Virus record (IMG/VR): IMGVR_UViG_3300042876_000983
Location: 1 to 43,167 of that record
Reading direction: 5' to 3' (one strand)
DNA length: 43,167 nucleotides
Source of the DNA: a virus
The position numbers and the translations under genes are program-made. The notes under the pieces were generated by a model that made no database searches, had not been told where the DNA came from, and saw nothing but the letters and a program-made list of their open reading frames with translations. This document shows positions 1 to 43,167 of the stretch, piece after piece; within the stretch, counting starts at the first letter, position 1, and each line of letters begins with the position of its first letter.

Positions 1-1
1 G

Positions 2-727
2 TCGCTTCCGGATCAGGACCCGGCAAACTGCATCAACTTCGATCAGTCCCGTTCGGCCTGTCTCGCTGCCGGCCCCGGCTTTCACCTGATGACTAACTGG
101 GAATGGGCAGCCGTTGCTCTTATGTGTATGAAAAACGGTTCCGGAGATCTGCGCGGGAACAACAACAGGGGCAAATCATATGAGGAGCCATCCGAGACCG
201 GCAAGGGGACCAAATACGGCAGAACCGCGACCGGCAGCGGCCCGGACACATGGCGGCATGATGGCACCTCCCATGGCATAGCGGATCTGGTCGGTAACGT
301 ATGGGAATGGAATGATGGACTGAAGCTGGTTGCCGGCAAGATCATTATGCCGGCGGATAATGCTTTTCTCCTTCCCGAGTCCGAATGGCCGGATACCGGC
401 GCTGTTATCGATCTACCGGGAAGCGATATTCAGATATCAAATGAAATTTCCCAGCGCGATTACGATGGCAGCCGCTTTAGCGATGCAACAGTGAAAAATA
501 ACTACGATCCACCCCTTGAACTCAAGCAGGCTCTCCTGCAGCCCCTAGCAGAAACTACCCTTACCGGCTATTTCTGGGCCGACAATACCGAAGATTTTGA
601 AGCCCTGCCGCTCCGTGGCGGCTCCTACGTCAACGATGACTACGCCGGTCTGGCCGCCCTGAACTTGTACGTTGAGCGCGGCAGCGGGAGCTTCACTGTC
701 GGGTTCCGGCCCGCTTTTATTGATTAA
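2..727 (+). CDS. DGR-type variable protein (C-type lectin / FGE-like fold), 3' part
   Basis: This is the continuation of the gene that starts at 42760; joined across the 163-base overlap it encodes about 323 residues. The family (formylglycine-generating-enzyme-like C-type lectin fold) is the usual target of diversity-generating retroelements and normally displays a ligand-binding surface. Visible family features are GFHLMTNWEWAAVA near residue 108, GIADLVGNVWEWN in the middle, and the C-terminal LRGGS...GFRPAFID. The last 34 or so residues (nt 611-712) form the variable region. Its codons there are strikingly NNY (TCC, TAC, GTC, AAC, GAT, GAC, TAC, then TAC, GTT, AGC, TTC, ACT, GTC), as expected where AAY template codons were mutagenised at adenines. 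A hairpin (765-783) and an Avd remnant (801-992) follow. The ligand is unknown. The fold and DGR origin are family knowledge; past diversification is inferred from the codon pattern. Confidence 0.85.
   Translation, partial: SLPDQDPANCINFDQSRSACLAAGPGFHLMTNWEWAAVALMCMKNGSGDLRGNNNRGKSYEEPSETGKGTKYGRTATGSGPDTWRHDGTSHGIADLVGNVWEWNDGLKLVAGKIIMPADNAFLLPESEWPDTGAVIDLPGSDIQISNEISQRDYDGSRFSDATVKNNYDPPLELKQALLQPLAETTLTGYFWADNTEDFEALPLRGGSYVNDDYAGLAALNLYVERGSGSFTVGFRPAFID
611..712 (+). other. DGR variable region (VR)
   Basis: The stretch encodes LRGGS to GFRP at the C-terminus of the lectin-fold protein. It has the typical VR architecture: conserved framework codons (CTC CGT GGC GGC; GCC GGT CTG GCC GCC CTG AAC TTG; GGG TTC CGG CCC) separate runs of NNY codons where DGR variable proteins usually carry template Asn codons. 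The G/C-rich 3' end, at about 700-712, matches where an initiation-of-mutagenic-homing segment would lie. No second, adenine-rich copy (template repeat) was found in the window, so the variable positions are inferred from codon pattern and family resemblance rather than from a VR/TR alignment. Confidence 0.75.
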
Positions 728-764
728 TCTGGCCTCTGGGCCTCTGATTATCTGAATGGGTCTG

Positions 765-783
765 CAGGGGCGAAGAGCCCCTG
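765..783 (+). promoter_or_regulatory. Hairpin downstream of the variable region (DGR target-site-like)
   Basis: A perfect 7-bp stem, CAGGGGC/GCCCCTG, closes a 5-base loop, GAAGA. It lies 38 bases after the stop codon of the variable protein. Short GC-rich hairpin/cruciform structures with small GA-type loops just 3' of the VR are known to help target recognition in DGRs such as the Bordetella phage one. There is no T tract, so it is not a convincing intrinsic terminator. Confidence 0.65.
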
Positions 784-800
784 TCACCCGCAGGGTGTGT

Positions 801-992
801 ATGGAAAACCTGAAGATCAAACAGCGAACTGAAGACATGATCAAGTATGGCTATATCGCCCTGCGCCAGTTCCCGAAGAGCGAGAATTGCAATGGCAAGA
901 AGACCATCGAATCTTTCCTGACCGGGATTATGGCCGCAGCTCCCCAGCCGGCACTTAACTTCAACGATCAAAAGGTATTACGTGCCAGCTGA
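801..992 (+). pseudogene. avd: Truncated DGR accessory protein Avd (four-helix bundle), N-terminal remnant
   Basis: The frame starts at ATG 801, seven bases after an AGGG, and encodes 63 residues. The first 27 or so (MENLKIKQRTEDMIKYGYIA, then LRQFPKS) match the N-terminal helix of the Avd-like four-helix-bundle proteins that sit between variable protein and reverse transcriptase in many DGRs. After FPKSE the family similarity stops and an unrelated 35-residue tail follows (NCNGKKTIESFLTGIMAAAP...), ending 11 bases inside the primase gene. Full-length Avd is about 110-130 residues, so roughly helices 2-4 are missing. The simplest reading is a deletion from about position 880 that removed the rest of avd, the template repeat and the RT. 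Whether the stub is translated is unknown. Confidence 0.7.
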
Positions 993-3285
993 CACACCGG
1001 AAAAACTGATCAACCCCAAAAAGCTGGCGATGCTGCCGAAGCTCCCCGAGGCATGGGTTGAGCGCATGGCTACGGAGCGCGGCTGGACTCCGGAGGCAAT
1101 TACCGAAGCCGGTCTGCGGCTATTCACCCACGGCAACGGGACGGAGCGGATTGCCTTTCCTATTTTTGACGGCGAAGGAAATCTGCCCAACATCCGTTTG
1201 TATCTGCCGAAAGCCAAAGGCAAGCAGCTGAAGATGATCAACTGGTTCGAGGGGACCGGTCCCAACAAAGTCACCTATGGCGGCGATCGTCTCTGGCCGC
1301 ATCCGTCGACATGGGTTGAGGGTCCGGTATGGCTGGTGGAGGGCGAGCCGGATCGCGTGGCCGGGCTGTCTCATAAGATGCCGGGCAATGTGGTAACCAG
1401 GACGGGCGGAGCTAGGTCCTGGAAGGATGAATGGACGGAATGTTTCCGAGACCGAGAGGTTATTCTCTGTCTTGACGCCGACAAGGTCGGTCTGGCCGGT
1501 GTGGAGCGCGTTGCCGGCGAGCTGCTCGGCGTTGCCAGCAAAATTCACGCGGTGATCTGGCCGGAGTTCATGTGGAAAGAGACTCCGCACCCGCTGTTTG
1601 ATGAGAATAAGTCACTGGAGGATTATTCGGAGTTCATCCGGGAGTTCGGCGCCGAATATCCGGCCAACCATGGCGAAGATTTGACTGACTTTTTCCATAA
1701 GCACGGCTGTTCCCTAGACGACCTTATCAATCATATTGCTGCTGGTGGATGCATTGAATACGAGCCGGAGGCGACTCCGGATCTGCCGACAGAAGACCTT
1801 CCGGATGAACCGCCAACAGAGGATGACAACCCGTCCTTGAGCGCTATCCGTCGCCGCTTTTTCGTCTGGCAGAGCGGCTGGAAATTCAAGCCGCCACTAT
1901 TGCGCGATGAAATCCTGGCGGCCCGAAAGTTCGTAGCCGATCCGCTTACCAAGCAGCTTTACGAATACGAAAGCCGCTACTGGAAGATGTCGTCTGTGGA
2001 GTTTGTGGAGGCCCTTGCTGCGGATATGATGGGGATCGAGGCGGAAACTGCCCGTGTGGCCAATGCTGCCAGGCTGGTTTATTTACGCTCACTCCTTCCT
2101 GAAGACAGGTCCCTGAATGATCATCACCATTTGATCTGCTTTGAAAACGGTATGCTCGATATTTCGGAAGGGCCGGACGCCGGCACGTTCTACCCCCACT
2201 CCCCCGACTATCTAGCTACGCAGATGCTGCCGTATCGCTTCGATGAGGCGGCTGACTGTCCACTTTGGAAGGCTACCCTTGAAGATTATCACCTGTCCAA
2301 GTCTGCCCAACTGCAGCTACAGCAGTTCTTCGGCTACTGCCTGACGCGAGAAACTAAATATGCCAAAGCTCTGCTTTTAAAAGGAGATGGCGCGGATGGC
2401 AAGTCAGTAATCCTGAATATTCTTCGTGCGATTATCGGCGAAGAAAACTGTAGCGCCGTACAAATGAGCCGGCTTGAAGATCCATTTGAGAGGGCCACCC
2501 TTTATGGCAAATTATTAAACATCTCTACCGAAGAAAACAAAGGCATTTTCGGCAGCGCTATTTTTAAGTCCGCGGTGTCTGGCGACCTAATGAATGCCAG
2601 CTTCAAGCATAAAGACTTTTTCCAGTTCCGCCCTTATGCAAAACACGCCTTCGCATCTAATTTTTTTCCGAACGTGTCAGACACCTCAGACGGGTTTTAC
2701 CGTCGTCTCCTGGCAATTAAATTTACAAGACAATTTGCCGAACATGAACAAGATAAAAACCTTGAAAAGAAGTTATTAAACGAGCGGTCTGGGATATGTA
2801 ATTGGGCAATAGCCGGGCTGATCTCTCTTAGGGAAATGGACGGTTTTGCCAAGTCCGAAGAGTCGCTGGAGTTCCTGGGCGAATACCGCCGCCACAATAA
2901 CCCGGTGCTGTCATTCACGCAGGAATGGTGCAAAACCCCGGCAGAGGGTGAAGACCTGCGCGTGTCGGTTGATGAGCTGTATGAGGCATACTGTATCTTT
3001 TGCACTAAGGATGGTTACAAGAAGATGCAGAAGAACAACTTCGGTGAGACTTTGCGGCAGGTCGCGAAGGTGAAGTCCGTGCGCTTGCTTTCTGATCCGG
3101 CGGCCTCCGATATTTCGAAGACACGTCCGCGCGGCTATGGCGGTATCGATCTCACCCAGGAAGCTCGCACAGCAGTGGCCGCTCGCACTCAGAGGTCTTC
3201 AGCCGGAGGTTCGGCCGCGCCCCCCGCCGCCCCCGATGCCGCAGGCAGGCAAGCCAATAGTAGTTGGGCGGGCGATGCTTGGTGA
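982..3285 (+). CDS. Toprim-domain primase / P4-type superfamily 3 helicase
   Basis: This is a large phage replication protein of 767 residues. The N-terminal part carries a Toprim-like primase module, with VEGEPD at 119-124 and the acidic LDADKVG at 164-170. A linker (about 260-290, Pro/Asp/Glu-rich) leads to the D5/P4 helicase part, with FENGMLDI near 388. Walker A GDGADGKS is at 468-475, a Walker B-like LLNISTEE is at 511-518, and a sensor-like ASNFFPNVSDTS follows. The start is taken as GTG 982 with AAAGG six bases upstream; the next ATG (1030) would cost 16 residues. There is no zinc finger here: a CHC2 zinc finger is a separate protein at 42367-42744. The two are separated only by the variable protein and Avd stub, so they probably act together at the origin. 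Confidence 0.88.
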   Translation: MPADTPEKLINPKKLAMLPKLPEAWVERMATERGWTPEAITEAGLRLFTHGNGTERIAFPIFDGEGNLPNIRLYLPKAKGKQLKMINWFEGTGPNKVTYGGDRLWPHPSTWVEGPVWLVEGEPDRVAGLSHKMPGNVVTRTGGARSWKDEWTECFRDREVILCLDADKVGLAGVERVAGELLGVASKIHAVIWPEFMWKETPHPLFDENKSLEDYSEFIREFGAEYPANHGEDLTDFFHKHGCSLDDLINHIAAGGCIEYEPEATPDLPTEDLPDEPPTEDDNPSLSAIRRRFFVWQSGWKFKPPLLRDEILAARKFVADPLTKQLYEYESRYWKMSSVEFVEALAADMMGIEAETARVANAARLVYLRSLLPEDRSLNDHHHLICFENGMLDISEGPDAGTFYPHSPDYLATQMLPYRFDEAADCPLWKATLEDYHLSKSAQLQLQQFFGYCLTRETKYAKALLLKGDGADGKSVILNILRAIIGEENCSAVQMSRLEDPFERATLYGKLLNISTEENKGIFGSAIFKSAVSGDLMNASFKHKDFFQFRPYAKHAFASNFFPNVSDTSDGFYRRLLAIKFTRQFAEHEQDKNLEKKLLNERSGICNWAIAGLISLREMDGFAKSEESLEFLGEYRRHNNPVLSFTQEWCKTPAEGEDLRVSVDELYEAYCIFCTKDGYKKMQKNNFGETLRQVAKVKSVRLLSDPAASDISKTRPRGYGGIDLTQEARTAVAARTQRSSAGGSAAPPAAPDAAGRQANSSWAGDAW

Positions 3286-42004: not shown

Positions 42005-42367
42005 ATGGCCCTTGGCGATCGCTTGAAGTGTTTATCTCAACACAAGATTGAAGTGCCCCCGCCAGATCCGGAGCCGGTTGTTTCTTTTGACCAGGCCGCG
42101 GCTGACGAGCTGCTGCACAAGATTAACGACGAGCTGGGCTGTTCGTATCCTCCCGGGTGTCTACAGTGGATCATTGCCAACCGGAAGGATATCTGGACGG
42201 CTCTCTGCTCGGGTGAGAACGTTGTCGATCTGGCTTATCTGAATGGCGACATGCCGGGCTTTGTGAAAGCGCTTGACCTGTTGAAGCGGATGTATTGCAA
42301 AGCTTACGAGGTGTTCAATACTCGCCCGCCGGTTATTGAAGTGCAGGCGGATTTGGGGCTGGGCTAA
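42005..42367 (+). CDS. Hypothetical protein upstream of primase zinc finger
   Basis: The 120-residue product starts at ATG 42005, three bases after the previous stop. It is acidic and helical: FDQAAADELLHKINDELGCS, then CLQWIIANRKDIWTALCSGE and NVVDLAYLNGDMPGFVKALDL. It has four cysteines but no obvious zinc pattern. The stop overlaps the next start (TAATGG). It may be a replication accessory protein, inferred from its partner genes only. Confidence 0.55.
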   Translation: MALGDRLKCLSQHKIEVPPPDPEPVVSFDQAAADELLHKINDELGCSYPPGCLQWIIANRKDIWTALCSGENVVDLAYLNGDMPGFVKALDLLKRMYCKAYEVFNTRPPVIEVQADLGLG

Positions 42368-42744
42368 TGGGTTTTGCTCTCGACAACCTGGGCGAGGATG
42401 AGTGCCGACGGATCGCCGCCGAACTATTTACGGTTACCGATGCCAAGGCGAAGCTGAACGGCATGTGCCCGTTCCATGGCGACAAGAAAACCCCTTCTTT
42501 TTACTACAACCCGGCCAAGGACAGTTGTGGCTGCAGCAGCTGCGGAGTTTATGGTGACCTGATCAAGTTATGGAGCCATGTTTTCGGCCTGGACAGCAAG
42601 ACGGACGGATTCAAGGCCTTTTGTCGGGAATTTGGTATTACCGGTAAAGGTAAAGATGGCACTCCCAAGAAGAGAGAGAGACCCCCACCTCCCCCGCCGA
42701 AACCGAAAGGGGCATGGAAAAGGCGATCTGATGAAGGATCATAA
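42367..42744 (+). CDS. CHC2-type primase zinc-finger protein
   Basis: The 125-residue protein is a stand-alone DnaG-type zinc finger. CPFHGDKKTPSFYYNPAKDS followed by CGCSSCGVYGDLIKLW (about 34-70) is the classical CHC2 template-binding domain. A short tail and a Pro-rich linker (PPPPPPKPKG) end the protein. Full-length phage primases carry this domain at the N-terminus of the Toprim-helicase protein. Here the rest is at 982-3285, with the DGR-type gene in between. It probably still works with that protein in trans. Confidence 0.85.
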   Translation: MGFALDNLGEDECRRIAAELFTVTDAKAKLNGMCPFHGDKKTPSFYYNPAKDSCGCSSCGVYGDLIKLWSHVFGLDSKTDGFKAFCREFGITGKGKDGTPKKRERPPPPPPKPKGAWKRRSDEGS

Positions 42745-42759: not shown

Positions 42760-43167
42760 ATGTCGGCAATCATCAAACATGAACTCGCAGCAGCGGTAGA
42801 GGAAGCATCAGGGGGCAAGCAGACCGTTCTCTGTACGGCGAAGGGGCAACCAACCTACATGAATATTGTTCCGGCTTTCAGGCTCGAAGAGATCAGCCCT
42901 GAGCTTGGCACCGGGCTTCATCCGGCTTTTATTGTCGGGGGTGTCGAGAAATCGGAGATCTACATCGGCACATATCAGGCTGTCATCCGTGACGGCGAAG
43001 CGTTGTCGCTTCCGGATCAGGACCCGGCAAACTGCATCAACTTCGATCAGTCCCGTTCGGCCTGTCTCGCTGCCGGCCCCGGCTTTCACCTGATGACTAA
43101 CTGGGAATGGGCAGCCGTTGCTCTTATGTGCATGAAAAACGGTTCCGGAAATCTGCGCGGGAACAAC
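42760..43167 (+). CDS. DGR-type variable protein, 5' part (continues at position 1)
   Basis: This is the first 136 residues of the C-type-lectin-fold variable protein, cut by the window end. ATG 42760 is preceded by a perfect AAAGGAGG, six bases away. The N-terminus (MSAIIKHELAAAVEEASGGK) is followed by PTYMNIVPAFRLEEISPEL and VEKSEIYIGTYQAVIRDGEA, the entry to the FGE-like fold, and the family text MTNWEWAAVA. The last 163 bases are repeated at 1-163; the two mismatches give one silent and one Asn-to-Asp difference. Joined, the gene is 972 bases. Confidence 0.85.
   Translation, partial: MSAIIKHELAAAVEEASGGKQTVLCTAKGQPTYMNIVPAFRLEEISPELGTGLHPAFIVGGVEKSEIYIGTYQAVIRDGEALSLPDQDPANCINFDQSRSACLAAGPGFHLMTNWEWAAVALMCMKNGSGNLRGNN
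43005..43167 (+). repeat. Terminal direct repeat (identical to 1-163 except two bases)
   Basis: Bases 43005-43167 match 1-163 with C versus T at 43131/127 and A versus G at 43150/146. Both copies are in the same reading frame of the same gene, which is only complete when the ends are joined. It marks the closing overlap of a circular or permuted molecule of about 43,004 bases, with minor sequence variation. Confidence 0.85.

Follow-up and report, generated by a model that had tools for sequence, protein, structure and literature searches.

We identify in IMGVR_UViG_3300042876_000983 a locus that is most probably a degenerate diversity-generating retroelement (DGR), in which a formerly complete cassette lying in the linker of a primase gene has lost its core through one in-frame deletion; we put the probability of this reading at about 80%. 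The sequence analysed, referred to here as the window, is the entire 43,167-base (~43.2 kb) IMG/VR virus record. An initial annotation had described a DGR remnant consisting of a lectin-fold variable protein (VP), a hairpin and an Avd stub, and all three are confirmed, as a TaqVP-type VP, a 7-bp hairpin at 765–783, and Avd residues 1–28. To these the comparison adds an RT tail past the Avd break, a VP start at the opposite contig end and the position of the relic within a primase gene. The features of the locus are as follows.

42367..42744, + strand: primase, CHC2 zinc-finger part (phrog_47, E 1.6e-11; dnaG domain, E 1.5e-9)
42760..43004, + strand: VP gene, 5′ part, with the ribosome-binding site AAAGGAGG immediately upstream; the gene resumes at window nt 1, past the contig joint
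1..727, + strand: VP gene, 3′ part, TaqVP-type C-type lectin fold (phrog_2889, E 5e-70; Pfam FGE-sulfatase, weak; PDB 5vf4 profile, E 1e-94)
605..719, + strand: variable region (VR) with an invariant, IMH-like 3′ end; differences from the L212 template repeat (TR) are concentrated at A sites
765–783, + strand: target hairpin CAGGGGC-GAAGA-GCCCCTG with a 7-bp stem; identical stem at the same position in relatives
801..886, + strand: Avd relic, codons 1–28 plus 2 nt, with profile matches; DNA homology with L212 stops at nt 886
887..992, + strand: C-terminal tail of a DGR reverse transcriptase (RT), fused in frame to Avd, matched by the RT-tail profile and by L212 tail DNA; stop codon TGA at 990–992
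982..3285, + strand: primase, Toprim and P4/D5-type helicase part; its GTG start gives an 11-nt overlap with the relic

Probable closure of the circle

End-to-end comparison of the record shows a terminal overlap in which 43005–43167 corresponds to 1–163 at 161/163 identity with two mismatches, and closing the record at this overlap gives a circle of 43,004 bp. The partial frames at the two contig ends then merge into a single 323-codon VP gene (42760..43004 plus 1..727). Direct end joining also yields an integrase–...–CHC2–Toprim–...–terminase order as in locus L139, an order that L141 and L142 share over the extent of their loci, and closure of the circle is thus supported. The overlap mismatches lie at 43131 and 43150 versus 127 and 146; one is silent and the other is an N/D change in VP, and they could stem from variation between strains or from another copy of VP. 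The deletion reading is based on one assembled genome, taken without reads, and the contig joint inside VP is its main caveat.

The variable protein, variable region and target hairpin

The joined VP frame encodes 323 aa of the phrog_2889 family and aligns end to end with the VP of locus L212 at an identity of about 71–72%; with the PDB 5vf4 match, TaqVP-type homology extends over the C-type-lectin-fold protein. PDB 5vf4 is the Thermus aquaticus DGR variable protein, which by profile (E 1e-94) belongs to the same family as the window VP and comes from a different host. Coding ends at nt 727 with the C-terminus LRGGSYVNDDYAGLAALNLYVERGSGSFTVGFRPAFID. The tail-protein family phrog_5302 gives only a weak match, and VP is presumably displayed on the virion.

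The VR lies at the 3′ end of the target gene and differs from the L212 TR in an A-specific manner: 16/29 A sites differ, compared with 11/76 other sites (OR 7.3, p 5e-5), and in the converse comparison the 13 A's of the window VR are all matched in that TR. The TRs of six other relatives show an A-site bias in the same direction, and outside the VR there is no clear A bias in VP, at most a slight one (OR 1.27, p 0.08). The pattern marks this, as judged from sequence, as a genuine VR that has been diversified in the past.

The hairpin that follows the VR recurs with the same stem at the matching place in L007, L008–L012, L017, L019 and L094, and it is not an intrinsic terminator, as no T-run follows it. 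Bordetella phage BPP-1 likewise has a GC-rich hairpin after its VR, and there this element is required for retrohoming and target recognition (PMC3240598). The two differ in that the window hairpin has a GAAGA loop, as in the intact relative L017, rather than a 4-nt GRNA loop, and in that BPP-1 has a TR, Avd and RT.

Absence of the TR and RT

The initial annotation reported that neither a TR nor an RT is present, and independent searches bear this out. There is no RVT_1 match in the record at E<=10, whereas positive-control genomes gave matches, and tblastn with the RTs of four relatives found nothing convincing in the record, although the same search readily detects the RT fragment of L103. 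All that remains of a DGR-type RT gene is its last ~35 residues, described below. An A-tolerant scan of both strands of the circularised record for a TR that agrees with the VR outside A sites left no fewer than 25–27 non-A mismatches per 90 nt, whereas a comparable scan mostly gives 0–2 in intact relatives. No intact avd-TR-RT cassette was found elsewhere on the molecule.

A search among relatives for a TR corresponding to this VR, as had been proposed, also came up empty, both among 212 loci and in two DNA-pattern scans of IMG/VR. The best foreign TR is that of L212, with 11/105 non-A mismatches, and L212 has a VR of its own.

An in-frame fusion of Avd and RT

The N-terminal segment encoded by 801–884 matches phrog_3206 (E 1.4e-7), Pfam bAvd (E 5e-5) and NCBIfam DivGenRetAVD (E 2e-5), so that the frame at 801 is Avd by profile search, as had been supposed. 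Its residues equal 27 of the first 28 of the intact L007 Avd, and 28 of ~112 residues are left.

The break was mapped against L212 (IMGVR_UViG_3300021176_000040), the closest intact cassette, which was uncovered by a DNA scan with the VR 3′ end and has the following components in order.

VP
1498–1836: Avd
near 1848–1960: TR
2122–3168: RT

L212 resembles the window in its VP (71% identical), in the same Avd start and VR 3′ end, and in the same type of hairpin, and differs in having a complete Avd, TR and RT. Its cassette adjoins a DUF5131 gene upstream of the terminase, whereas the window relic is inside a primase gene. DNA homology between the two begins at VP and ends inside avd at window nt 886, within the interval of about 880–975 where the initial annotation had suggested that alignment to an intact relative might place a breakpoint. 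Past the break, the residues CNGKKTIESFLTG align with the tail at the C-terminus of DGR RTs, which reads KHCNGALTVESVLAG in L212 and HCDGKRSVESVLDR in L019. Measured on L212, the lost segment is 1,512 nt (~1.51 kb) long, a multiple of three, and Avd and RT are therefore fused in frame. The deletion of the mutagenic core that had been postulated is thus supported by both the end of the homology and the RT tail that follows it.

A profile built from 21 RT tails, with the residues before the break left out, ranks the Avd-fused ORF first of 1375 six-frame segments of the circularised record (E 0.017, next 0.9), and when the L212 RT tail is compared with each of the record's 42,965 + strand positions, no other scores as high as the 39 nt past the break. 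The match is short, and at a record-wide E of 0.017 its strength comes mainly from position and frame. At the DNA level 885–981 has no match to Avd, the record itself or the relatives; the RT-tail match emerges only in translated searches against L212, and it replaces a reading of this stretch as sequence of unknown origin. The exact Avd-RT junction sequence is carried by no other contig.

Over 27 codons the Avd relic and L212 are separated by 11 synonymous changes and 1 nonsynonymous change, which argues for protein-level constraint on the relic until recently. These substitutions suggest that the loss of the DGR core may be recent.

An interrupted primase gene

The CHC2 part of the primase directly precedes VP, and the Toprim/helicase part follows the relic. 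Among 63 viral loci that encode a related primase, 52 have both parts, and in 51/52 these form a single open frame with a linker; none of the 63 has a VP, Avd or RT at this position. Since CHC2 and Toprim are in one frame in almost all of these relatives and are separated here, the DGR relic interrupts the primase linker. No flanking repeats were found around the insert, and an intron or retron was dropped as a candidate for it, there being no Rfam match at E<=1.

Proposed history and alternatives

According to the preferred reading, a complete cassette (VP, Avd, TR, RT) would once have sat between the CHC2 and Toprim domains of the primase, its arrival presumably preceding the deletion. A single in-frame event of ~1.5 kb would then have taken the TR together with the remainder of avd and all but the end of the RT, joining Avd residues 1–28 to the last ~35 RT residues and sparing VP, VR and hairpin. 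Because the TR and RT are absent, the phage is unable to diversify VP alone, and VP would now be a fixed receptor-type protein unless another element supplies the machinery. The order of events could have been otherwise, with the deletion occurring first, in another phage, and VP and the scar alone being transferred to the primase gene afterwards. The primase site is empty in the relatives seen and the neighbours of VP vary widely among phages, both of which accord with such a transfer; it requires the same deletion plus a transfer, though, and no flanking repeats were found, so that we consider it possible but rather unlikely. Entry of the cassette followed by deletion, and transfer of a deleted cassette, look alike from one genome.

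The initial annotation left two fates for VP, frozen or served in trans; the loss of the core that underlies the former is upheld, and the latter gained no direct support, no matching TR having been found. In its general form, service in trans means that VP is a satellite target, diversified by the RT and TR of a separate replicon, be it the host, a prophage or a co-infecting phage; we regard it as unlikely. The VR, its 3′ end and the hairpin are intact, which favours it, but an intact target is equally well explained by recent loss. In genomes G009 (L012, L017) and G008 (L010) there is a second VP that is separated by >50 kb from the TR and RT of the same contig and differs from that TR mainly at A sites. 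The target hairpin is conserved at these remote VPs, which together with the A-site differences shows diversification at a distance within one genome in this clade; all of these cases, however, are within one genome, and no TR with few non-A mismatches to the window VR was found, that of L212 being the closest. Slightly less probable still is a receive-only target, in which VP, VR and hairpin would be under selection and mutated by a DGR on another replicon; if true, DGR machinery would be shared between genomes.

An assembly gap, in which the contig is broken by two near-identical copies of VP and more VPs or the DGR core lie between its ends, is equally improbable in our estimation. The contig does end in VP with the near-perfect overlap noted above, and tandem VPs are known in L013, L015 and L094; given the position of the ends and the two mismatches, the joint could conceivably conceal another VP, or even a cassette flanked by VP copies. 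Against this, direct end joining restores the L139 gene order (and that of L141 and L142 within the span of their loci), the tandem VPs of L013 and L015 are merely 63–70% identical in DNA, and the Avd-RT fusion is inside the contig, where no gap can account for it.

Related loci and core loss

Of 70 VP loci that extend far enough downstream, both Avd and RT are present in 43 and both are missing from 19; another 6 are partial, and an RT unaccompanied by a recognised Avd occurs in 2. An independent relic is present in L103 (7080–7570; Deltaproteobacteria MAG JAKAKP010000059.1), where a frameshifted Avd start continues as RT C-terminal sequence. It shares with the window the order VP, Avd start and RT C-terminus, the last two being joined, and differs in its breakpoints, in a longer, frameshifted Avd part, and in being outside a primase gene as far as examined. 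A deletion hotspot shared by the two was considered and dropped, as the L103 Avd continues past PKSE with a frameshift.

A different outcome is seen in L039, which is 91–96% identical to L057, L058 and L072 around the cassette and has lost the segment from mid-avd to near the RT end, TR included. In place of this segment there are ~700 nt of other sequence (L039:7159–7854), encoding on the minus strand a protein that we take to be HNH endonuclease-like. The window and L103, with their parallel Avd-RT scars, and L039, with its replaced core, together indicate that loss of the core recurs in this clade and spares VP.

Two further loci are related to the phage in other ways. L002 (100–1260) encodes a capsid protein 76% identical to that of the window and carries a different DGR with another TR type (YSNNAWNINFNNGNQNNNN) and its own RT; it was rejected as the source of the missing core because, close as it is by its capsid genes, its DGR has this other TR type. 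L021 (4330–5313) has a VP of the same family between a 280-aa gene and the terminase, in a phage with 40% identity in its primase; neither Avd nor a TR was found near this VP. Alignment of the MCP against GTDB genomes returned nothing.

Remote targets, and a decayed RT beside distal targets, have been described previously (PMC8144416, PMC3521204). Pseudogulbenkiania NH8B resembles the window in having a decayed DGR with target genes left without a working local RT, and differs in that its genome retains a working RT (PMC3521204), none being found in the window record. A degenerate DGR is thus an already known kind of locus, of which the window is a well-resolved new example: a single in-frame deletion with both breakpoints set by an intact relative, in a relic within a replication gene whose primase is split into two frames. 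It provides a cleanly resolved route by which a phage would lose targeted hypermutation and keep the diversified protein.
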